In this document: positions 1,022 to 43,237 of the stretch, piece after piece
How the letters are laid out: each line of letters starts with the position of its first letter
How positions within the stretch are numbered: the first letter of the stretch is position 1
DNA from: Halovenus aranensis
GTDB taxonomy: Archaea; Halobacteriota; Halobacteria; Halobacteriales; Haloarculaceae
NCBI RefSeq assembly: GCF_900100385.1
Contig: NZ_FNFC01000010.1
Location: 1-64,000 of the forward strand
Length of the DNA: 64,000 nucleotides
Direction: 5' to 3'
Position numbers and translations under genes: made by a program
The notes under the pieces: generated by a model
What the model was told of the DNA's origin: nothing
What the model saw: the letters and a program-made list of their open reading frames with translations, nothing else
The model's database searches: none

Positions 1022-2329
1022 TCAGTCGTTCTGGTCGGCAAGCGCCGCCAGGTCGTCGTTGATATCCGCACCGGAACTCTCGCCAGGAAGAATATCACCG
1101 AGCGCCGCACCGAAGGAGGCGACAGTCCAAACCACACTAACTCGCGCGAGCGCAACGACGGGGTCTTCCCAGGCGACACGGCCCCACATCGTCATGAGAG
1201 CGGCCGTCGTCAGGAGAGACACGAGCGCGATGCCGATGAGCCGTCGCGGAATAACTCCAAGCAGCGGTCGGTTGACTCGGACGTCCTGTGGACCTGCCCA
1301 GTAAACCAACGCCAGAATCATCAGCAACACGAAGACGGTGTTGAGCAGGAAAAACACGGGAAAGACGCCAACCTGGAAGGAGAGAAAGTACTCCGCGACG
1401 TCGAAGACACCATCCTCGACCAGGAACGGAATCGCGAAGAAGATGCTGCCGACGAACCCCTCAGCGATGTCTCGGGAGGTATACTTCTGGATGCGGTCGC
1501 CCAGTGTGTCTTCGACCGTCGCTTGGACCGAACGCTCACGGATGCGGTTTACGGCCTGTCGCTCGCCGGTGTCGTCGACGACAGATTCGAGATCGTCGAA
1601 CTGTTCGTGAAGTGCCGCAACGAGCGCACTGTCGCGCATCTCTCTAATCGCCTGTGGCCGCTTCGCAGCGACTGCTGGAGAGTCATCCAGTGTCGGTGAA
1701 GACGCCACCGCCGGTGCATCGTCGGCGAGGATATCTCCGAGCGCGGCGCCGAGCGACCCGACAGTCCAGATGACGTTGATGCGTGCAAGCGCCGCAAGGG
1801 GTGACTGCCAGCCGTCGACGCGACCCCAGACAGTCATCAGGGCAGTCGTGACGAGCAAGGAGACAGCCAGCGTCATCACAAGCCGGGCAGGGACGTGCCC
1901 GAACAGGAGAGCAGTCTCGTCGGTGTCTCGTCCTGTCCACTGGAGCAGTGCGTAGGTCATCACCACGACAAACAGCGTGTTCGCGAGCAGGAACACCGGG
2001 ACACCAGCGACCGCGACGTCGAACAGGTGGTCCGCAATATCGAAAATGCCATCCTCGACGAGAAGGGGGGAGGCGAAGATGACACTTCCGACCAACGCTT
2101 CGGCGGCGTCTCGTTGTCCCAGGTCTCGGACGCCCGATTCTATCAGGCCGCGCTCGTATGCTTCCAGCAACAGATGCTCGACATCTCGACGCTCTGCTTG
2201 GGTCTGGGCGTCGGCACGGTCCCCCGCAACCGTCTCCAAGTCGGCGAGCAACTCCTCGATTGTCGGGGCGGGCTCGCTGTCCGCTGTCGACGGCTTCGGC
2301 CCGGGCTGGTCTGTCATCAGTACAGACAC
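1022..2329 (-). CDS. DUF2391-type integral membrane protein, tandemly duplicated
   Basis: A 435-residue membrane protein made of two homologous halves, residues about 73-203 and 286-416. Both carry the same series of hydrophobic segments, including VEDG[IV]FD, the L(L/I)TTAALMT(V/M)WGRV segment, and ending in GAALGDIL. This resembles the family of predicted membrane proteins called DUF2391, which normally has one copy; the family name is from memory and moderately sure. The acidic linker at about 204-285 is probably cytoplasmic. A second Met at residue 5 is an equally plausible start. The gene lies 36 nt downstream of engB on the same strand, probably in one transcript. Function unknown. Confidence 0.8.
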   Translation of the reverse strand: MSVLMTDQPGPKPSTADSEPAPTIEELLADLETVAGDRADAQTQAERRDVEHLLLEAYERGLIESGVRDLGQRDAAEALVGSVIFASPLLVEDGIFDIADHLFDVAVAGVPVFLLANTLFVVVMTYALLQWTGRDTDETALLFGHVPARLVMTLAVSLLVTTALMTVWGRVDGWQSPLAALARINVIWTVGSLGAALGDILADDAPAVASSPTLDDSPAVAAKRPQAIREMRDSALVAALHEQFDDLESVVDDTGERQAVNRIRERSVQATVEDTLGDRIQKYTSRDIAEGFVGSIFFAIPFLVEDGVFDVAEYFLSFQVGVFPVFFLLNTVFVLLMILALVYWAGPQDVRVNRPLLGVIPRRLIGIALVSLLTTAALMTMWGRVAWEDPVVALARVSVVWTVASFGAALGDILPGESSGADINDDLAALADQND

Positions 2330-2365
2330 AGAATGCGAGCCAGATATAGATACGTCCCGGTGGCG

Positions 2366-2983
2366 CTAGAAGAACTTGAACAGGTCGTCGCGTTCGGCTT
2401 CGTGGAGGTGCGTTCGGACCGCCTCGTTGAGCGGGCCGATAGTTCCTCGCTTGGCACTGATTGGAGCAATCACGTCCTGCCACTGCTTCCAGGGCGGGAC
2501 GAGACCGAACCGCTCGGCGACCTCGTCGAGGCGGTCGTCGCGGTTGTCGACTTTGTCCATCTTGTTGACCGCAATAACGGCTGGAACACCGACGTCTCGT
2601 AAGAAGTGATACAGCTCGACGGTGTGTGGCACCTCGTCAGGACCGGAATGGCGGTCGATAATATCGACGGCTGCTTTCCCGTCGAGGACGAGGACACCCG
2701 CGAGGATGTTGTCGGCGTACTGCTCGATGTACTGGACGACGTCGGTCTTTATCTGTTCGCGAACCTCCTCTGGAGTCCCTTTCATGAACCCGAATCCGGG
2801 AAGGTCTGTTATCACGAAGTCTTCGCTGGCCCAGTCGTAGTGGTTGGGCTTGCGCGTGACACCGGGTCGCTGGCCCGTATCGAACGTATGTCCCGTTATC
2901 TCACGCATCAGCGTCGACTTCCCGACGTTCGACCGCCCCACCAACACGACTTCGCCTTCGCGGTCCGGCCGCGTTTCGAACAT
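2366..2983 (-). CDS. engB: GTP-binding protein EngB
   Basis: A 205-residue single-domain GTPase of the EngB/YihA family, which in bacteria acts in large-subunit ribosome assembly. The G motifs are complete: G1 GRSNVGKST at residues 16-24, G2 Thr in GVTRKP near 43, G3 DLPGFG at 60-65, G4 NKMD at 140-143 and G5 SAK at 176-178. Length is normal. A TATA-like box about 27 nt upstream suits a leaderless message starting at this ATG. It is probably co-transcribed with the downstream membrane-protein gene; no functional link is known to me. Confidence 0.93.
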
Positions 2984-3006
2984 ACCCGATGTTGTGTCGA
3001 ACAGCC

Positions 3007-3013
3007 GATAAAC
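3007..3013 (-). promoter_or_regulatory. TATA box of engB
   Basis: On the minus strand this reads as a GTTTATC-type box centred about 27 nt before the engB ATG, the spacing expected for a leaderless haloarchaeal transcript. Confidence 0.45.
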
Positions 3014-3064
3014 GTGTCTATCGGCCGTTTCCCGGACCGAACCTCGTCAACAGAATTAAGTAAG

Positions 3065-29206: not shown

Positions 29207-29267
29207 AGGGTGATAACTTTTGTGATTGGAATCTGTTGTCATTCCACAAACTAGTTGTATTCACCCT
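29207..29267. repeat. AT-rich imperfect long hairpin at the 3' end of a lipoprotein gene
   Basis: AGGGTGA at 29207-29213 pairs with TCACCCT at 29261-29267, and inside GGAAT (29228-29232) pairs with ATTCC (29241-29245), with partial pairing between. The right arm overlaps the minus-strand stop codon at 29261. The stretch is clearly more A/T-rich than its surroundings. A terminator or stability element for the propeller lipoprotein message is the simplest reading. The 294 nt between 28966 and 29261 otherwise show no gene. Confidence 0.4.
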
Positions 29268-30463
29268 TTCGGTGCCAAATCTCCCAGTGCGGCGATGCCA
29301 TCGACTGTGTTGCTCAAAAAATACACCGCGCCGTCGGCGATAGCCGTCTGGCCCAGCGTCGGGTCGAAGGACTTGCCGACAGAGTAATACCACCGCGTCG
29401 AGCCGTCGGCGCGGTCGAACGCGGCGACACAGGGCCACATCGTGTCGAACTCGTCAGACCTGACGGAGACGACGACGCTTTCCTGGCCGACACAGATACC
29501 ATCGGCTAGCGGCTCGACCTCGGTCTGCCACTGTTGTGACCCGTCGGTCACAGAGACGGCGAACAGTCCCGCCGGCGAGAGGACAAATGCCGTCTCCCCG
29601 GCGACTGCTACTGCCTGTATCCGTCGCGACACCCTGTCCACTCTGTCGAGGTCGAGCAGCCTCCGGGACTCGTCTCCGGAGTGGCTGACTCTACGGAGCG
29701 TCCCCTCGTCGCTGATGAACACGCCGTTCGACGTGACGGCCGGTGGCGTCTCGGCGATGAGTTCCCGCTCCCAGGTTCGTGTCCCGTCTGTCAGGTCGTA
29801 GGCGCGAAGCACCTCGGTATCGTCCTGGCGGCGACCGGCCGCGTACACGCGGCCCTCGAAAACGGCTGGTGGGACCGTGTCGAGTCCGAAGCGCATCTGT
29901 ACTGTCCAGGCGATGGTTCCCGTCCCAACCTCGAGGGCGACGAGGTCGTCCCGCCCGCGGCGCTCGAACGGGACGAGCGCGAGTTCGCCGGCAGGGTCGA
30001 CAGTCACCGGCCCCGCTGCAGCCCCCTCTCTCGGTGTCTCCCACAACAGGTCGCCGCTGTCGCGCTCGACGGCAACCACACGTCCGGCGACGCCGAGTAT
30101 CACCGCCTCGGCGGTCACTGCAGGCGCGGTGGCATCTCCGGTTTCTGCGTCGAGGTCGACGCTCCAGCGCGTCTCGCCGGTCTGTGCGTCGAGTGCGTCT
30201 ATCTGCGTAGCGACCGAAAAGACGGTGTCGCCGGCCACGAGTGGCGGTATCTCCCAGGCGTCGCCACTCTCCCAGGCGAGGGTTCCGCGGTCGGGGACCG
30301 CTACCTCGGCGGCGCCGGTGTTCGCGGCGTCGTGTGCGAACTGGCCCCAGGTTCCCCTCGGCATTGCCGGAAGCGACCGGCTCGGGTCGTCGTCGAGACA
30401 GCCGGCCAGGGCCGTGCTGCCCGCGAGCGCACAGGCAATCACGCGTCTACGGGTCCAATCCAT
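29261..30463 (-). CDS. Tat lipoprotein with PQQ-like beta-propeller
   Basis: A 400-residue exported protein. RRR at 5-7 and lipobox LAGC at 19-22 indicate Tat export and lipid anchoring. The mature part has repeated blades of the LDAQTGETRWSVDLD, VERDSGDLLWET and YDLTDGTRTWERE kind, i.e. a PQQ/BamB-like propeller (about seven blades) without the residues needed to be sure of PQQ binding. Such haloarchaeal proteins may be scaffolds or quinone-dependent enzymes; no partner enzyme is adjacent. Confidence 0.88.
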   Translation of the reverse strand: MDWTRRRVIACALAGSTALAGCLDDDPSRSLPAMPRGTWGQFAHDAANTGAAEVAVPDRGTLAWESGDAWEIPPLVAGDTVFSVATQIDALDAQTGETRWSVDLDAETGDATAPAVTAEAVILGVAGRVVAVERDSGDLLWETPREGAAAGPVTVDPAGELALVPFERRGRDDLVALEVGTGTIAWTVQMRFGLDTVPPAVFEGRVYAAGRRQDDTEVLRAYDLTDGTRTWERELIAETPPAVTSNGVFISDEGTLRRVSHSGDESRRLLDLDRVDRVSRRIQAVAVAGETAFVLSPAGLFAVSVTDGSQQWQTEVEPLADGICVGQESVVVSVRSDEFDTMWPCVAAFDRADGSTRWYYSVGKSFDPTLGQTAIADGAVYFLSNTVDGIAALGDLAPKG

Positions 30464-30810: not shown

Positions 30811-33800
30811 TCAGGCCGTCGACTCCTGGAGCGGCCTGATTGCGATTTCCATCTCGACGCCCTCGACGGTCCAGCTCTCGCGGTGGCCATCCTCAAGCGC
30901 GCCGAACTCGGCGGCTCGGACCTCCCGGCCGATGAGGCTCTCGTGGTTGCGAACCAGCGCGGCCACGCGGTCGTCTTTCACGTCGAGGTCGACCCGAATC
31001 TCTTCCTCGATGTCGAGGTCGAGTTCTTTGCGCATCTCCTGGACGCGGCGGATGACTTCGCGGGCGTACCCCTCGCTCTCGATGCCCTCGGTGAGTTCGG
31101 TATCGACGTAGACGACGCCCGTCGAGTCGAGTGCCTCGAACTCGGTCGCGGAGACACCCTCGGGTGTCTCGGTGACGATTTCGACCATCTCGTCGGTCAA
31201 CTCCACGTCCATGCCCGTCTCGGCTTCGACGGCCGCTTCGAGTGCGTCGAGTGTCGGCTCGTCGACGCGTGCCGCGTTGAGCGCGTTCATCACGGGGCCT
31301 GCGTCCTCGCCGAAGGCCGGGCCGAGTTTCGACATGTCCGCGGTCGCAGAGTAGCGAATCTCTCCCCACTCGTCGCCCGGACCGAGTACCCGCACCTCGC
31401 GAGCGTTGAGCCGCTCGGCGACGAGGTCGGCCTGCGTCTCGACGGCGTCGGCCAGCGTCTCGCTGCCCGTGTCGACGACGACTTCGGGAACGGGCCAGCG
31501 CAGCTTACGCTCTGCCTGCTGGCGGGCGTTCGAGCCGGCCTCTTCGACGGCGCGGACGGCCGTAATCTCTGCCTCGAGTTGCTCGTCTTGGAGTGTCGCG
31601 TCGCGGTCGGGCCAGTCGGCCATATGGACCGTCGGATGGCCGTCGTCGCCGGTCAACGCGCCGTACAGTTCCTCGGCGACCAGTGGAACGAAGGGGGCCA
31701 TCATCGTCACCGTGTCTTCGAGCACGCGGTACAACGTCGCGTAGGCCGCCCGCTTGGAGGGGGAGTCGGCCTCGTCCCACATGCGCTCACGGACTACTTG
31801 GACGTAGAATCGAGACACGTCCTCGACGATGAACTCCAGCAGCGCCTCGACCGCGTAGTCGTTGGCGAACGACTCGAGCTCCTCGGTGACCGTCTCGGCG
31901 GTCGTCGCGAGCCGCGAGAGAATCCACTCGTCGACGAGTTCGAGGTCGTCTTCGACCGCCTCGACGCTCGTCTCTCTCGGGTCGAAGCCGTCGGCCGCCA
32001 TGTACGGCAGCGGGAAGCGGACGACGTTCCAGAGGATGTTGAGCTGGCGTTGCATCTTCTCGGTCCCCTCCCAAGAGAACTGCATGTCCTCGCCGCGGGG
32101 ATTGACCGACAGCAAGAACAGCCGCAGGGGGTCGACGCCGTGTTCGTCGATAACGTCGTGAGGGTCGATGCGGATGTCCTTCGATTTCGACATCGCGCGA
32201 CCGTCGGGCATCAGCGCGTGACCGTGCATCAGCAGGTTCTCGTAGGGGACCTGGTCGACCGAGACCGTCCCCATGCCGAGCTGTGACCAGAACCAGCCAC
32301 GGGTCTGGTCGTGTGCCTCGATAACGAGGTCGGCCGGCCACAGTTCCTCGTGTTCGGACTCGTCGCTCGGGTAGCCAAGCGTCCCCCACGAGGCGACCGA
32401 GGAGTCGAGCCAGACGTCGAACACGTCGGGGACGCGCTCGTAGACGACACCGTCTTCGGTGATGGTGAGGTCGTCGACGGTCCCCTTGTGGAGGTCGACC
32501 GTTTCGGGGTCGATGTCTTGGTCGACGCGCTCGGCGAGCTCCTCGCGGGTGGGGACGACGATTGCATCGTCCATCTCGCCGCTCCAAGTCAGGCTCTCGC
32601 CGTCGGTTGTCTCGCCTGGCAGCCAGATGGGAATCGGAATCCCCCAGTAGCGCTGACGGGAGACGTTCCAGTCCGGTGCCTCCTCGACGAAATCCCGGAA
32701 CCGGTTCTCACGCGCCCACTGGGGGTGCCAGTCGCTGTCCTCGATGTTGTCGAGCAGGTCCTCTTTCACGTCGGTAACGGTGATGAACCACTGGTCGGTG
32801 ACCATCTGGACGATACCGGTGTCACAGCGCCAGCAGTGGCCGTAGCTGTGCTGGGTCTCGCCGGCGTGGAGCATCCGGCCCTCGGCTTCGAGGTCGGCGA
32901 TGATATCCTCGTTGGCATCGCGGACGAATTCGCCGGCGTATCGGCCGGCAGCGTCGGTGTAGACGCCGTCGCTCCCGACCGGACAGAACGCCTCCAGGCC
33001 GAGTTCGCGGCCGCGAGCGAAGTCCTCCTCACCGTGGCCGGGCGCGGAGTGGACCAGCCCCGTCCGGTCGGCCTCGACGTAGTCGGCGGTGTAGACCTGG
33101 CAGGCACCCTCGAAGTCGGGGTGGTCCGGGACCTCCTCGGCCAGCGGGTGGTCGTACTCCCAGCCGACCATCTCCGCGCCGGTCGTCTCGTCGACGACCT
33201 CGTACTCCTCGTATCCGCCCTGTTCGATTACCTCATCGACGCAGGCTTTCGCGACCCACAGGACCTCTTCCGAGCCGTCGGACGCACTCGCACGGACTGC
33301 CTGGTAAGACAGGTCGCCGTCGACGGCGACGAAGGTGTTCGCTGGAATCGTCCAGGGCGTCGTCGTCCAGATGACAAGCGAGCCCTCCCGCTCGGTGAGG
33401 TCGAATTTCACGTATATCGAGGGGTCGTGAACGTCCTCGTACTCGACTTCGTTGTTCGCGATGGCCGTCTCACACCGGGGACACTGCGTAATCGAGCGCT
33501 GGCCCTGCTCGACGAGGCCGCGGTCGTTCGCCTCTGCGAACCCCCACCAGGCGGCCTCCATGTACTCCGGCTCGACCGTCCGGTAGGGGTCGTCCCAGTC
33601 CATCCAGACGCCCATCGACTTGAAATCTTCCGTGAGCTGCTGGAGGCTGTCCTCGGCGAAGTCCCGACAGTCGTCGACGAAGTTATCGACGCCGTAGTTC
33701 TCGATGTCTTTCTTGTTCTGGAAGTCGAGTTCCTCCTCGACTTTCGTCTCGATTGGCAGGCCGTGCATGTCGTACCCCGGCCGGTCGTAAACATCGTGAC

Positions 33801-34053
33801 CCTGCATGCGCTTGAACCGGATGTAACAGTCTTTGAGGCTCTTGTTCAGGGCGTGACCCATGTGTGCAGACCCCGAGGTGTAGGGCGGCCCGTCGAGGAA
33901 ATAGTACGGCTCCTCGTCGGCCCGGTGCTCTTTCGTCCGCTCGTAGGCGTCGACGGCCTCCCAGTGGTCGAAGACGCGGTCCTCGACCGCATCTGGTTCG
34001 TACTGGTCGCCGACATCGCCGAACCGTCGTCCGTCCGGTGTGTCGTCGCTCAT
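30811..34053 (-). CDS. ileS: Isoleucyl-tRNA synthetase
   Basis: A 1080-residue class I synthetase that charges tRNA-Ile. GPPYTSGSAHMGH (residues 55-67) is the HIGH-type signature and MSKSK near residue 620 is the KMSKS loop. The intervening CP1 editing domain, the WNVSRQRYWG segment, and the anticodon-binding and C-terminal domains are all present at normal archaeal/eukaryal-type length. Strong acidity fits a halophile. A TATA box 28 nt before the ATG supports this start. Confidence 0.97.
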   Translation of the reverse strand: MSDDTPDGRRFGDVGDQYEPDAVEDRVFDHWEAVDAYERTKEHRADEEPYYFLDGPPYTSGSAHMGHALNKSLKDCYIRFKRMQGHDVYDRPGYDMHGLPIETKVEEELDFQNKKDIENYGVDNFVDDCRDFAEDSLQQLTEDFKSMGVWMDWDDPYRTVEPEYMEAAWWGFAEANDRGLVEQGQRSITQCPRCETAIANNEVEYEDVHDPSIYVKFDLTEREGSLVIWTTTPWTIPANTFVAVDGDLSYQAVRASASDGSEEVLWVAKACVDEVIEQGGYEEYEVVDETTGAEMVGWEYDHPLAEEVPDHPDFEGACQVYTADYVEADRTGLVHSAPGHGEEDFARGRELGLEAFCPVGSDGVYTDAAGRYAGEFVRDANEDIIADLEAEGRMLHAGETQHSYGHCWRCDTGIVQMVTDQWFITVTDVKEDLLDNIEDSDWHPQWARENRFRDFVEEAPDWNVSRQRYWGIPIPIWLPGETTDGESLTWSGEMDDAIVVPTREELAERVDQDIDPETVDLHKGTVDDLTITEDGVVYERVPDVFDVWLDSSVASWGTLGYPSDESEHEELWPADLVIEAHDQTRGWFWSQLGMGTVSVDQVPYENLLMHGHALMPDGRAMSKSKDIRIDPHDVIDEHGVDPLRLFLLSVNPRGEDMQFSWEGTEKMQRQLNILWNVVRFPLPYMAADGFDPRETSVEAVEDDLELVDEWILSRLATTAETVTEELESFANDYAVEALLEFIVEDVSRFYVQVVRERMWDEADSPSKRAAYATLYRVLEDTVTMMAPFVPLVAEELYGALTGDDGHPTVHMADWPDRDATLQDEQLEAEITAVRAVEEAGSNARQQAERKLRWPVPEVVVDTGSETLADAVETQADLVAERLNAREVRVLGPGDEWGEIRYSATADMSKLGPAFGEDAGPVMNALNAARVDEPTLDALEAAVEAETGMDVELTDEMVEIVTETPEGVSATEFEALDSTGVVYVDTELTEGIESEGYAREVIRRVQEMRKELDLDIEEEIRVDLDVKDDRVAALVRNHESLIGREVRAAEFGALEDGHRESWTVEGVEMEIAIRPLQESTA

Positions 34054-34102: not shown

Positions 34103-36070
34103 TCAGGGCTCGGTCAGCGCGTAGATAGCGCCGTCGTTGCTGCCGACGTAGACGGTGTTCGAGACGACGGCAGGTGAGGAGATGACATCGTTTCCCGTCT
34201 CGAAACGCCAGCGGACGGTCCCCTCAGTCGTATCCAGCGCGTAGACGGCGCCGTCGGTGCTGCCGACGTAGACGGTGTCCGAGGCAACAGCAGGCGAGGA
34301 GATGACCGCCGCACCGGTGTCGAACTCCCACTCTATCCCTCCCCGTTTGCTGTCGACCGCGTAGACCGAGCCGTCGTTACACCCGACGTAGACGGTGCCA
34401 CCGTTGTGGTCTGTGACGGCGGGCGAGGAGACGACCGGTGCGGTCGTATTGAACCGCCACTCCACCGTTCCCTCCTCACTGTCGAGTGCCACGAGGCCAT
34501 CCTCTTCGAGACCGACGTAGACGAGACCGTCGGCGACAGCGGGTGAAGAGCCGACAGTCGACCCCCCGTCGAAGGTCCAGCGTGTACTCCCGTCGGCCGT
34601 ATCGAGCGCAACGACTCCCCTGGTCTGTTCCTCCCAGGTTGTCTCGGACGTCTCGCGGGTCAGCGCGCCCACATACAGCGTGTCGTCGACGACGGCACCG
34701 GCGAGACTCGTCGTCGACAGGCCGGCAGCTTCCCACTCTCGCTCGCCGTCGGTGGTGAACGCGTACACGCCCTGGTTGCCGAAGGCGTACAGTCGCTCGT
34801 CGACGACGGTCGGCGTTCTAAGTGGACTTTCGACGGTCTCGTTCCGCCAGCGCTCGGCTCCGTCTGCGAGCGACCGGGCCGCGATAGCTGGCCCGTCACC
34901 CGAGCTGTCGGCGAAATACATGCGACCGTCGTCGAGTGCTGCCGTCACCGCACCGAACGCCTCGAGTGATGCACGCCAGCGCTCGCCTCCGTCCTGGGTC
35001 GCCAGCGCGTAGACGGAGCCGTCGCCGTCACTGACTAGAACTGTCTTCTCTGCGACGACCGGGGACGTTCGCACATCCGCGCCGAGTTCGACCGACCATG
35101 CCTCGGTTACGTCGGCGGTCGGGCCGGCCGACGCCGTCACGTGCCCCGTGTTCGCCGCATCGAACCGAAACTGCGGGAACCGCCCGCTCTTCGAGTCCTG
35201 CAGGTAGGTCGCCGTCGCCCAGGCACCGCCCGCGGCCGCGACAGCCGCGAGCCCGGCCGCACCGAGCACGGCTCGACGACCGACCGCCGTGCTGTCGTCG
35301 GTTGCCTCCACGTCGCCGCTGTCACTCGGCGGCCCCATTCCGGTTGGTGGCTCTGTGTCGCGGGCAGGGCGCTCCCCCTCATCGGGCGGGTCGGGAGTCG
35401 TGTGGCTCTCGAACAGGAGCGCGCGTTTGAACGCGTACGGCGAATCGTACCGCTCGTCAGCGTCTGTTGAGAGAGCAGTCTCGATGACGGCCGCGACGGC
35501 CGGTGGCACTGCGTCTTCGAGGGGCTGTTGTCCGTCGTCTGCGCCGGGTAGCTGACCCGTCACTGCGTAGTACGCCAGTCGGCCGAGTTGAGTGACCGCG
35601 GTATCGTCAGACGTGGTCGCTTCGTCCCGAGGCTGTATCGGCCAGTCAAGTGTCCCTCCGTCTGCCGTGACACGCACACTGGCCGGCGAAATCGTGGCCG
35701 GACTGTGGCCGGCAGCGGCCGCCGCTCGGAGGGCTTCGGCCACGTCGCCGACGACCGCCCGTGTCTGCTCGACCGACAGCGGGGCGGCTTCCGAAAGGGG
35801 TGTTCCCGCCGTGGTGACAGCGAGCCACGGGCGCGGGGTCGTCCCCCGTTCGTGGACGGTGCTGATACCGGGGCGTGAACTGAGCGACGCCCAGGCGTCG
35901 AGGCGGTCGGTCACTGCCGTCTGTTCCGCTGTCGTCGTGATGAGACGAACTGTGTCAGGGCCGTCTGTGAGGCGTGCGGCGTAGACCTGCACGGCACCGG
36001 TCTCGTCGCGGAGGTCGGCGGCCGCGATGCCTGTGGCGTCGCGGACGAAGTGGGCGGCGTCGTCTGCCAT
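34103..36070 (-). CDS. Pseudokinase fused to an exported PQQ-like beta-propeller
   Basis: A 655-residue protein from the ATG at 36070. Residues about 1-220 align with a protein-kinase fold: residues 124-132 (PATISPASV) correspond to HRDIKPENI of active kinases, with the catalytic Asp replaced by Thr and the following Lys and Asn by Ser; DFG is LDWP (141-144). No catalytic Lys is evident. After a Pro/Asp linker, RRAVLG at 265-270 begins a membrane anchor to about 289. From 290 a propeller has repeated AVDSKRG/ALDTTEG blades and SPAV...VYVGS turns. The kinase-like part should be inside the cell and the propeller outside. Confidence 0.82.
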   Translation of the reverse strand: MADDAAHFVRDATGIAAADLRDETGAVQVYAARLTDGPDTVRLITTTAEQTAVTDRLDAWASLSSRPGISTVHERGTTPRPWLAVTTAGTPLSEAAPLSVEQTRAVVGDVAEALRAAAAAGHSPATISPASVRVTADGGTLDWPIQPRDEATTSDDTAVTQLGRLAYYAVTGQLPGADDGQQPLEDAVPPAVAAVIETALSTDADERYDSPYAFKRALLFESHTTPDPPDEGERPARDTEPPTGMGPPSDSGDVEATDDSTAVGRRAVLGAAGLAAVAAAGGAWATATYLQDSKSGRFPQFRFDAANTGHVTASAGPTADVTEAWSVELGADVRTSPVVAEKTVLVSDGDGSVYALATQDGGERWRASLEAFGAVTAALDDGRMYFADSSGDGPAIAARSLADGAERWRNETVESPLRTPTVVDERLYAFGNQGVYAFTTDGEREWEAAGLSTTSLAGAVVDDTLYVGALTRETSETTWEEQTRGVVALDTADGSTRWTFDGGSTVGSSPAVADGLVYVGLEEDGLVALDSEEGTVEWRFNTTAPVVSSPAVTDHNGGTVYVGCNDGSVYAVDSKRGGIEWEFDTGAAVISSPAVASDTVYVGSTDGAVYALDTTEGTVRWRFETGNDVISSPAVVSNTVYVGSNDGAIYALTEP

Positions 36071-36181
36071 CGCTCGGTAGTACTGCCTGGGCACACAAAT
36101 ACAACCGGGGCCGCCTCGCGTGGGCCGCCGCCGGGCGTGTCGCGCCGAAAGCCCTTTTTGCCTGCCAGTGGATGCTCACGT

Positions 36182-40593: not shown

Positions 40594-41526
40594 TCAGTAA
40601 AACGCTGCCGGGCCGTGGTCGTCTTGCCATGTGAACGCGAACAGCCGCCGGGCGGGGGCCCGTTCGAGCTGGCGACCGTCGGCGGCGACGCCGGTGGCCG
40701 GGTCCCACGTCGTGCCGTCGGCACCGAGTCGGCCGTCGACAACTGCGAAGTCGTAGCCGGGGTCCTCGAACGCGTGGAGGCCGTCGGCGGCGGTGACCAC
40801 CACGTCCATATCGCCGACTGTGTCGGTGACGACACCGCCCTCAGCGCGGAGGCGCGGCTCGGGGTAGCCGACGGACTCACCGCCGTGTTCGATTCCCAGT
40901 ACCAGCGTCTTCGGGCTGACATCCTCGCGGTCCCAAGAGCGCCCCTCGCCGGTGCGGTGTGCCTTCAGGCCGAACTCGTCTATCTCGAAGTACTCTTCGT
41001 AAGGGTCGTCGGTGTAATCGACCGGGGCCGGCTGGTCGTCGTCGCTGGCTGCCTCGCTTTTGATGTCTGGTGGCTGGAGTACGACACCGTCTGGATACTC
41101 CACACAGAACCGCTCCCACGTGATGATGCCCGCCGGCCGGACGGCCAACTCCGTCCCTTCGAAGGTGCCAGAGAGGCACTCGCCCCGGGACTGCTTCCAC
41201 TCGGAGTCGGTTTCGCGGTCGTACATTACGAGGTCGTCGTCGGCGAGTTTCCCCGAGACACCGAAGGTCAGCACCCGCTCGCCGACGGTCCGCTCGTAGA
41301 CGACGCCACTGGCACAGAGGGGACACCACGTCACCGCTACCGGGTCGCCGTCGATGCGGTCATTGACGATTTCGTGGAAGTTGAGGATGCGAATCGGGTA
41401 CGCCTTCGGGGGGTCCCCGTCGAGGACGAGGACCTCGTCGTCTGCACCGCCGACGAACTTCTCGCCGAACACGGGGTCATCGATGCTCGGAATGGCGTCT
41501 TTCTCGAGGACGTCTACGACGTTCAT
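40594..41526 (-). CDS. DUF3179 domain protein
   Basis: A 310-residue protein. The DUF3179 core is clear: NFHEIVND, then VTWCPLCASGVVYER with its Cys pair, TFGVSGKLADDDLVMYDRETDSEW, and a later TWERFC segment. I chose the ATG at 41526 because the upstream frame shows no domain. There is no signal peptide. The WCPLC pattern could be a redox or metal site, but the family's activity is unknown. The neighbour to the right is a VOC protein on the same strand, 64 nt away. Confidence 0.85.
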   Translation of the reverse strand: MNVVDVLEKDAIPSIDDPVFGEKFVGGADDEVLVLDGDPPKAYPIRILNFHEIVNDRIDGDPVAVTWCPLCASGVVYERTVGERVLTFGVSGKLADDDLVMYDRETDSEWKQSRGECLSGTFEGTELAVRPAGIITWERFCVEYPDGVVLQPPDIKSEAASDDDQPAPVDYTDDPYEEYFEIDEFGLKAHRTGEGRSWDREDVSPKTLVLGIEHGGESVGYPEPRLRAEGGVVTDTVGDMDVVVTAADGLHAFEDPGYDFAVVDGRLGADGTTWDPATGVAADGRQLERAPARRLFAFTWQDDHGPAAFY

Positions 41527-41590
41527 GGAGTTGGATTCACCTGTCTCAGGTAAGAATGTGTGCTGTGTGTGTGGCTCCGGAGACAGACCA

Positions 41591-41989
41591 CTAGTGGAGT
41601 TTGAGTTCGACCCGACGGCCGTCGGGGTCACGGACGTAGGCCGCCCACGCCCGGCCGTAGGCACCGTATCGCTTGTAGGGTTCGCCGTCCTCGACCTCGA
41701 CGCCGTGGTTTCGGAGGTCGGCCAGCATGTCGTCGAGTTCCTCCCGAGCGTCTACCGTCTCAGAGCGCACCAGCAGACAGAGGTGTTCGCCGCCGACCTC
41801 CACATCGTCGTCGGTCGGCACGAGGTGGATGTGTCGTCCACCGGCGACGACCGCGACGTAGGGAACCTCGCCCGCCTCGTAGCGGTCGCGGTCCCGGACC
41901 GGCAACCCCAACTGGTCGTGGTAGAACGACAGCGCGCGGTCGATGTCCGTCACCCGAATCGCCATATGGTCAATGTCGACAACGTCCAT
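41591..41989 (-). CDS. VOC family protein
   Basis: A 132-residue single VOC domain: IDHMAIRVTDIDRALSFYHDQLGLPV at the N terminus, HIHLVPTD in the middle, HLCLLVRSET at the start of the second module and YVRDPDGRRVELK at the end. His and Glu positions fit a metal-dependent lyase, isomerase or dioxygenase. It lies upstream of DUF3179 on the same strand and may be co-transcribed with it. Confidence 0.87.
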   Translation of the reverse strand: MDVVDIDHMAIRVTDIDRALSFYHDQLGLPVRDRDRYEAGEVPYVAVVAGGRHIHLVPTDDDVEVGGEHLCLLVRSETVDAREELDDMLADLRNHGVEVEDGEPYKRYGAYGRAWAAYVRDPDGRRVELKLH

Positions 41990-42073
41990 ACTCCCGGTTG
42001 GGGCCTGCGAGACTTATATTGGGGCACGCGAGAGAAACCAGATATTTCAGCCTCGGGTGACGACAGACGAACT

Positions 42074-43237
42074 ATGCCCTCCTACACACGCCGGCAGGCA
42101 CTCGCGGGTATCGTCGCGACCAGTATCGCTGGCTGTCTCTCCCGTCCCACGGGGACCGGCTCGCTGGACGACCTCGACGGGTCGTGGCCGGTCGCTGGCG
42201 GCAACGTAGGGCACTCGCGCACTGTCTCCGGAGTACCGAGCAACCCGGAGACGGTGTGGACGACAGAGCTACCGGACACCCGCTCGGTTGGCACCCCCGC
42301 AATCGTCGACGGCCAGGTGTACGTCCCGGTCGATTCGGTCTCCGAACAGGCGCGACACCGCTATGGGATACACGCTCTCTCAGGAGAAACCGGTACGGAG
42401 CGCTGGCAGGTCCCGCTCCGAGCAGAGCCAAACGGGCCGCCGGCAGTCACGGCAGGACGCATCCTCGCCAGCGGCAAGCGAAGCACTGAGCGAGGCCGAC
42501 TGGTCGCCTTCAGTGAGCCACACGGCGAGGAGGAGTGGCTGTACGATGTCGACGCCCGTGTGACCGCACCACCTACCTTCGACGTGACGACAGTGTTTCT
42601 CCCGGACTGGAGCGGGACTGTCCACGCGCTGTCGGCGGTCGACGGCTCGGTTCGGTGGGCTCGTCGCGTCGGCACCGCGGCCGGACAACGGACCTTCCCG
42701 CACGCGGCGGCAGTCGAAAACGGGCGACTGTATCTGGGGTCGAGTTCGGGCCAGACCGGCGTCGTCGCGGTCGACGCCGAAACCGGCGAGACCGACTGGT
42801 CGCGGTCGACGCCACGGGTGACCGCCGGCCCGGTCGTTCACGACGGGCTCGTGGTGGCACAGACCGGCTCGGTCGTCCGGGCCTTCGATACCGACGGCGG
42901 CGAGCTGTGGGCGGTGTCTCTGCCAAACCAGACGCCGCGCCGGCTACAGTCGGCTGTCGACGACAGCCACGTCTACGTCACCAGAGGCGCGACGACGTAC
43001 GCGCTCACACGAGAGGGCAAACAAGATTGGACCTACGACCACAACGCCGCGGCGAAGCGCCCACCGACGGTCGCCGGAGACGCAGTGCTCGTCCCCGAAG
43101 ACGACGCGATAACCGCCATCGACCGGACCGACGGGACGACACTGTGGCAGACGAAAACAGACGGGCAGGCCACACTCGTCACGGCGTCGAACGCCCTCCT
43201 CACAAGCAACTCCAGCACGGTGACCGCGCGCGGGTAA
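42074..43237 (+). CDS. Tat lipoprotein with PQQ-like beta-propeller (second copy type)
   Basis: A 387-residue exported propeller. RRQALAG and lipobox IAGC in the first 25 residues give a Tat lipoprotein signal. The start at 42074 follows a TATA-like CTTATATT near 42012. Blades of the ALSGETGTERWQVPL, ALSAVDGSVRWARR and AVDAETGETDWSRS kind recur. It resembles in design the lipoprotein at 29261-30463 and the propeller half at 34103-36070, but its sequence is not close enough to call a recent duplicate. Confidence 0.86.
   Translation: MPSYTRRQALAGIVATSIAGCLSRPTGTGSLDDLDGSWPVAGGNVGHSRTVSGVPSNPETVWTTELPDTRSVGTPAIVDGQVYVPVDSVSEQARHRYGIHALSGETGTERWQVPLRAEPNGPPAVTAGRILASGKRSTERGRLVAFSEPHGEEEWLYDVDARVTAPPTFDVTTVFLPDWSGTVHALSAVDGSVRWARRVGTAAGQRTFPHAAAVENGRLYLGSSSGQTGVVAVDAETGETDWSRSTPRVTAGPVVHDGLVVAQTGSVVRAFDTDGGELWAVSLPNQTPRRLQSAVDDSHVYVTRGATTYALTREGKQDWTYDHNAAAKRPPTVAGDAVLVPEDDAITAIDRTDGTTLWQTKTDGQATLVTASNALLTSNSSTVTARG

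Follow-up and report, generated by a model that had tools for sequence, protein, structure and literature searches.

The gene at 34103..36070 on the minus strand of the window, that is, the whole 64,000-nt stretch of the Halovenus aranensis contig NZ_FNFC01000010.1 that was analysed, encodes a protein of 655 aa (hereafter P0001) whose reading frame comprises a pseudokinase domain, a linker, a twin-arginine helix and a propeller, and which probably acts as a single-pass receptor pseudokinase, relaying the state of its propeller to a cytoplasmic partner without phosphotransfer. The gene is complete, in a genome with a completeness of 99.7%. Its frame is open over 34103-36094(-), and a Met at 36070 gives the 655-residue product, which begins with MADDAAHF. 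This start Met is conserved in the orthologue of Halovenus salina (L045), 63% identical to P0001 across the whole length, and the coordinates of the original prediction are therefore right.

The N-terminal domain (residues 1-222; 35405..36070, minus strand) is firmly assigned to the protein kinase superfamily (PknB-type Ser/Thr fold) by homology, an assignment drawn from hhalign, a profile match to PknB, a residue table and dN/dS. In Pfam, this domain has no Pkinase match at the curated cut-off, and the best PDB match of P0001 in a single-sequence phmmer search, PknE, is weak (E=0.19). For homology, however, the missing Pkinase match is outweighed by the positive profile comparisons. A profile of 16 homologous domains (A1) matches PknB at E=3.6e-35, and 12 of these 16 relatives individually match Pkinase in Pfam at E<=1. 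As such a profile could be carried by its less degenerate members, P0001 and its three closest orthologues were compared separately with the active haloarchaeal kinase clade, which resulted in an hhalign probability of 99.5% (E=1.5e-22) and 230 columns in register, from the N-lobe through helix I. P0001 alone reached a probability of 98.4% and a score of 99 against the active haloarchaeal kinases, whereas 30 column-shuffled versions of the four-orthologue alignment, used as a control, gave a top score of 17.6, which rules out a chance resemblance to kinases. The kinase layout anticipated by the original prediction is thus borne out by both the score of 99 and the PknB profile match.

Most of the catalytic residues have nevertheless been replaced or lost. 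According to a MAFFT alignment to PknB, the beta3 Lys40 corresponds to I44 in P0001, the alphaC Glu59 to R56, the His and Asp138 of the HRD motif to P124 and T126, and the catalytic-loop Lys140 and Asn143 to S128 and S131, respectively. The loss of the catalytic Asp and Lys had been correctly anticipated, but the DFG-type Asp, also thought to be gone, is present as D142 within D142-W143-P144. The haloarchaeal kinase family carries a DWG motif in place of DFG, and the Gly is gone from the DWP of P0001. Moreover, the activation segment is mostly missing, APE included, with about 17 residues between the DFG-type Asp and helix F versus about 37 in the complete relative L020, a deletion of some 20 residues, and R207 of helix I is retained. 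This erosion is graded among the orthologues: the layout is entire in L020 and L021, apart from a missing catalytic Asp, and mostly preserved in L019, and the activation segment is much reduced or lost in L017, L018 and P0001. With I44, T126 and D142 at the positions of the beta3 Lys, HRD Asp and DFG Asp that together define an active Ser/Thr kinase, P0001 falls among the pseudokinases, understood as proteins with kinase homology and at least one catalytic motif gone. An active site hidden elsewhere was ruled out, as the alignment shows no alternative Lys/Asp set. The domain would be incompetent for phosphotransfer, and a weak binding of nucleotides or metals may persist given the retention of D142.

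AF2 predictions of the full-length protein, based on two sequences, were confident only over much of the second half of the propeller (block means of about 70-93), with the pseudokinase at a pLDDT at or under about 50. A model of the pseudokinase obtained from nine sequences follows the canonical order of elements (alphaC-beta4-beta5-alphaE-beta6-8-alphaF-alphaH-alphaI), and has PknB and other mycobacterial kinases as top matches and MviN (3otv) further down. This second model is of low confidence (mean pLDDT of 49, pTM of 0.45) and its alignment was biased by the canonical kinases in it, so that its matches to PknB carry little weight.

The C-terminal part (residues 298-655; 34106..35179, minus strand) corresponds to an 8-bladed BamB/PQQ-like beta-propeller, matched in Pfam by PQQ_2 (E=6e-42) and Beta-prop_ACSF4, and its AF2 model is matched in Foldseek by BamB (TMt of about 0.8) and the designed 8-bladed Cake8. 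The PQQ_2 and BamB matches confirm the PQQ-like propeller that was foreseen across the helix, its location outside the cell being predicted. The NCBIfam models for specific propeller proteins stay below their cut-offs, with 134.9 bits versus 285.2 for BamB (TIGR03300), 59 versus 480 for PQQ dehydrogenase (TIGR03075), and 109.4 versus 1300 for AfsK (NF053615), the latter through the propeller part only. The genome encodes several other PQQ-type propeller proteins with no kinase domain, and besides the gene of P0001 the window itself holds two kinase-less PQQ_2 propeller genes (29261-30463 and 41354-43237). The PDB entries 7eq5 and 7dxn were set aside as close kinase relatives, since the propeller alone matches. 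Their PDB name, 'Membrane associated protein kinase with beta-propeller', is misleading, the protein given for 7eq5 being YxaL from Bacillus velezensis.

Between both domains, a fast-evolving, acidic and Pro/Asp/Gly-rich juxtamembrane linker (residues 223-262; 35285..35404, minus strand) leads to a Tat-like (twin-arginine) internal signal-anchor (residues 263-290; 35201..35284, minus strand; VGRRAVLGAAGLAAVAAAGGAWATATYL). The membrane helix proper, at about 267-290, bears out the anchor of the original prediction and is headed by R265-R266. As in Tat substrates, the motif G-R265-R266-A-V-L precedes a weakly hydrophobic helix, with a mean hydropathy of 1.53. Among 14 relatives in which the domain is N-terminal and just one helix comes after it, 13 show [GST]RR or RRR at the helix start, with a mean hydropathy of about 1.3-2.2, although these sequences share ancestry and do not amount to 13 independent events; in the remaining one (L051), the helix lacks RR and is more hydrophobic. 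The twin arginine at the helix, together with the normally extracytoplasmic location of sensor domains, supports an arrangement with the pseudokinase inside and the propeller outside, and P0001 is probably exported via Tat through this internal twin-arginine anchor. AxA motifs are present in the helix of P0001 and some relatives, which makes cleavage and release of the propeller possible; they are absent from most relatives, so that an uncleaved anchor seems likelier. Known internal Tat helices come after Sec-inserted helices (PMC5449189), whereas the predicted Tat signal of P0001 would act mid-chain, behind a soluble stretch of some 260 residues and without any membrane helix before it.

A comparison of P0001 with its H. 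salina orthologue by the Nei-Gojobori method gave a dN/dS of 0.31 in both the pseudokinase and the propeller, and of 0.34 in the helix. A decaying pseudogene domain is thereby ruled out, and the equal values for pseudokinase and propeller indicate that the degenerate domain is maintained and functional. The linker shows 27% identity and a dN/dS above 1 between these orthologues, calculated over just 33 aligned codons. About 50 bp downstream of the gene, on the same strand, lies ileS, coding for an isoleucyl-tRNA synthetase (30811..34053, minus strand; NCBIfam TIGR00392), which is probably co-transcribed with the pseudokinase gene and is separate from the receptor, forming no part of it. A spacing of 50-54 bp to ileS recurs in H. 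salina and in one more genome (G099), and is absent from four other Halovenus orthologue loci. Among the orthologue loci compared, no partner gene is consistently linked to the pseudokinase gene; with ileS adjacent in three of seven loci and a Peripla_BP_6 neighbour in two of seven, no operon partner with a functional link is claimed.

P0001 belongs to a haloarchaeal family, with relatives in 77 of the 146 genomes of its taxonomic family and in 144 of the 391 sampled genomes of its class. Of the 79 non-redundant domains sampled, 15 combine the beta3 Lys, the HRD Asp and the DFG-type Asp. Phylogenetic analysis groups P0001 with the haloarchaeal domains against a PknB outgroup, within a clade of 36 sampled haloarchaeal domains (SH-aLRT of 100%) that has no active members, and within a nested subclade of 12 N-terminal, receptor-type inactive domains (SH-aLRT of 98%; 98 and 99 for the nested sets). 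The C-terminal parts found in this subclade are diverse: the propeller in P0001 and its Halovenus orthologues, SBP_bac_5 (L022), Peripla_BP_6 (L023, which keeps HxDLKPDN without the beta3 Lys), a PBP_like_2/PstS-like domain (L025), a weakly DUF7282-like one (L053) and a polytopic region (L024). P0001 shows the order of domain, single twin-arginine helix and extracytoplasmic sensor, to which L051, for its lack of RR, and the polytopic L024 are the exceptions in the clade. The presence of different sensors on one domain type is in keeping with a shared cytoplasmic output. Outside the subclade, three active relatives (L069, L074 and L108) have all their catalytic motifs intact (K, E, HxDxKxxN and DWG); an internal twin-arginine helix like that of P0001 links them to a plastocyanin-type copper domain, and they could possibly be copper or redox receptor kinases. 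The reverse order occurs in L076-L078, where an exported Tat-type PQQ propeller and a membrane helix precede a kinase-like domain at the C-terminus; that of L078 is active, and those of L076 and L077 are degenerate. A scan of viral contigs found no close relatives of P0001.

Kinase-like genes cluster with those of a large Tubulin_2 protein, a membrane protein and a Pfam-less protein at L076 (6946-12828) and L080 (3084-8928), in identical gene order in two genomes. The Halomicrobium mukohataei plasmid pHmuk01 holds about seven kinase-annotated genes within 31 kb (L125, 76076-106717), accompanied by one gene with a PP2C domain and one for a PQQ propeller, and tblastn finds 12 matching places in this plasmid.

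As for the signalling repertoire of the genome, a profile of the active clade (A2) matched only P0001 and one other protein, C55:112744 (L081; G000:C55:110500-116000, 1681-3027), of 448-454 aa, whose C-terminal domain is likewise a pseudokinase to judge from its key-site residues (L-A-V-G-L-N) and whose N-terminal region matches nothing in Pfam. No active kinase of the P0001 family was thus detected with this profile, and neither PP2C_2 nor FHA was found in the genome. Control searches for PP2C_2 and FHA in Haloferax volcanii likewise gave no match, so that their absence may be common in haloarchaea. Atypical kinase-like proteins are represented by an ABC1-type kinase (L002) and one further weak match. 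In two other genomes carrying orthologues (G100 and G108), the active-kinase profile also matches pseudokinase-type proteins only, and other Halovenus genomes encode family kinases that score high and have every catalytic residue in place, such as L092 and L093.

With the active site gone, the domain under purifying selection, and no active family kinase, PP2C_2 or FHA detected in the genome, P0001 is most economically read as a non-catalytic relay. The propeller would be exported to face the outside, and the degenerate kinase domain would stay cytoplasmic and serve for docking. Once the propeller had bound a ligand or an envelope component, a change of conformation or of oligomeric state would pass through the helix, and the pseudokinase would bind or release a cytoplasmic partner, transmitting the signal. 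In this scheme, we infer the topology, the Tat export, the lack of ATP binding, the ligand, the partner and the direction of the signal. Signalling by conformational change, as first proposed, agrees with the relay as far as the lack of catalysis is concerned, the conformational step being the conjectural part; the 'inside-out' label does not hold, as a relay of the surface state would run outside-in.

Pseudokinases commonly act as allosteric partners of kinases, as do HER3 and STRAD in eukaryotes, and P0001 could similarly pair with a kinase, be it active or atypical (ABC1, RIO or Bud32), and couple the propeller to phosphorylation. The ABC1-type protein of the genome could be such a partner, and the active DWG kinases with internal Tat-like anchors among the relatives (L069, L074 and L108), like the complete family kinases of other Halovenus genomes, speak for this mode of action, but the restriction of profile matches to pseudokinase types in the H. 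aranensis genome, G100 and G108, as well as the lack of PP2C_2 and FHA matches in the first of these, make it unlikely. Pseudokinase-type proteins may also perform other transfers, SelO and SidJ being examples. A residual or unorthodox catalysis in P0001, or the sensing of ATP, another nucleotide or a metal as a switch, would fit the retained D142 of the DWG motif, the HxDLKPDN of L023 and the pseudokinases of altered chemistry already described (PMC12599244). Such an activity is nonetheless distinctly improbable in a domain where the beta3 Lys, alphaC Glu and HRD Asp, and the Lys and Asn of the catalytic loop, are replaced, a Pro stands in for the DWG Gly and the activation segment is largely gone. 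Finally, the kinase-like domain might merely help anchoring or assembly and leave the real work to the surface propeller, for instance as a BamB-like envelope scaffold, in keeping with the BamB-like fold and the kinase-less PQQ-type propellers of the same genome; a pseudokinase as conserved as the propeller, and of a type fused to quite different sensors, renders this highly improbable.

Beyond P0001, the non-catalytic relay opens the tentative possibility, rather doubtful at present, of a haloarchaeal class of transmembrane receptors signalling without phosphotransfer, in which dead-kinase outputs would be combined with interchangeable sensors (propeller, peptide-, amino-acid- and phosphate-type) through an internal Tat anchor behind a soluble domain, and which would work even without a canonical active Ser/Thr kinase, PP2C or FHA. 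It is in eukaryotes, and at the sequence level in bacteria, that receptor pseudokinases are best known. The open-access literature searched yielded no description of this haloarchaeal receptor-pseudokinase family nor of any archaeal receptor pseudokinase, and the family of receptor-like dead kinases is apparently undescribed so far. The combination of a dead kinase under selection, swapped sensors and no detectable active family kinase would make a stand-alone role for a receptor pseudokinase directly testable.

The original prediction knew of no described function; the order of kinase and propeller does have precedents. PknD of Mycobacterium tuberculosis shares the domain order of P0001, with a cytoplasmic kinase, a helix and an extracytoplasmic propeller, whereas its kinase is active and its propeller is 6-bladed and of the NHL type. 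AfsK and the kinase-TM-PQQ proteins of Streptomyces also place the kinase before the propeller; one of the latter (P0002, WP_168723486.1) has one membrane helix with basic residues before it and, unlike P0001, a full catalytic set (ALK, HRDLKPAN and DFG). PQQ repeats in bacterial kinases were already noted in 2005 (PMC1262709), and in Deinococcus radiodurans RqkA (DR2518) likewise joins a kinase-type domain and a PQQ-type propeller in one protein, but is an active kinase that responds to stimulation by PQQ and by DNA ends (PMC11007091), in contrast to the lost active site of P0001. Membrane-linked pseudokinases are also known, such as MviN (Rv3910), whose pseudokinase domain binds neither ATP nor magnesium, and EssB/YukC, in which the Gly-loop is degraded and the activation loop strongly reduced (PMC12599244); these function in peptidoglycan synthesis and type VII secretion, and differ from P0001 in their partners and architecture, with no propeller. 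The internal, uncleaved twin-arginine helix of the dual Sec-Tat Rieske proteins of Actinobacteria inserts an extracytoplasmic domain (PMC5449189, PMC7317946), although it follows Sec-inserted helices and not, as in P0001, a soluble domain alone. A further likeness is found in ActPs1, a group of Act1-related actinobacterial pseudokinases with all three canonical catalytic residues substituted, many of which carry a C-terminal PQQ_2 domain like that of P0001 (O'Boyle et al. 2025; PMC12599244). Judged by the published description of ActPs1, P0001 is set apart by its DFG-type Asp (D142), its haloarchaeal clade, the twin-arginine helix between its two parts and the swapping of sensors among its relatives.
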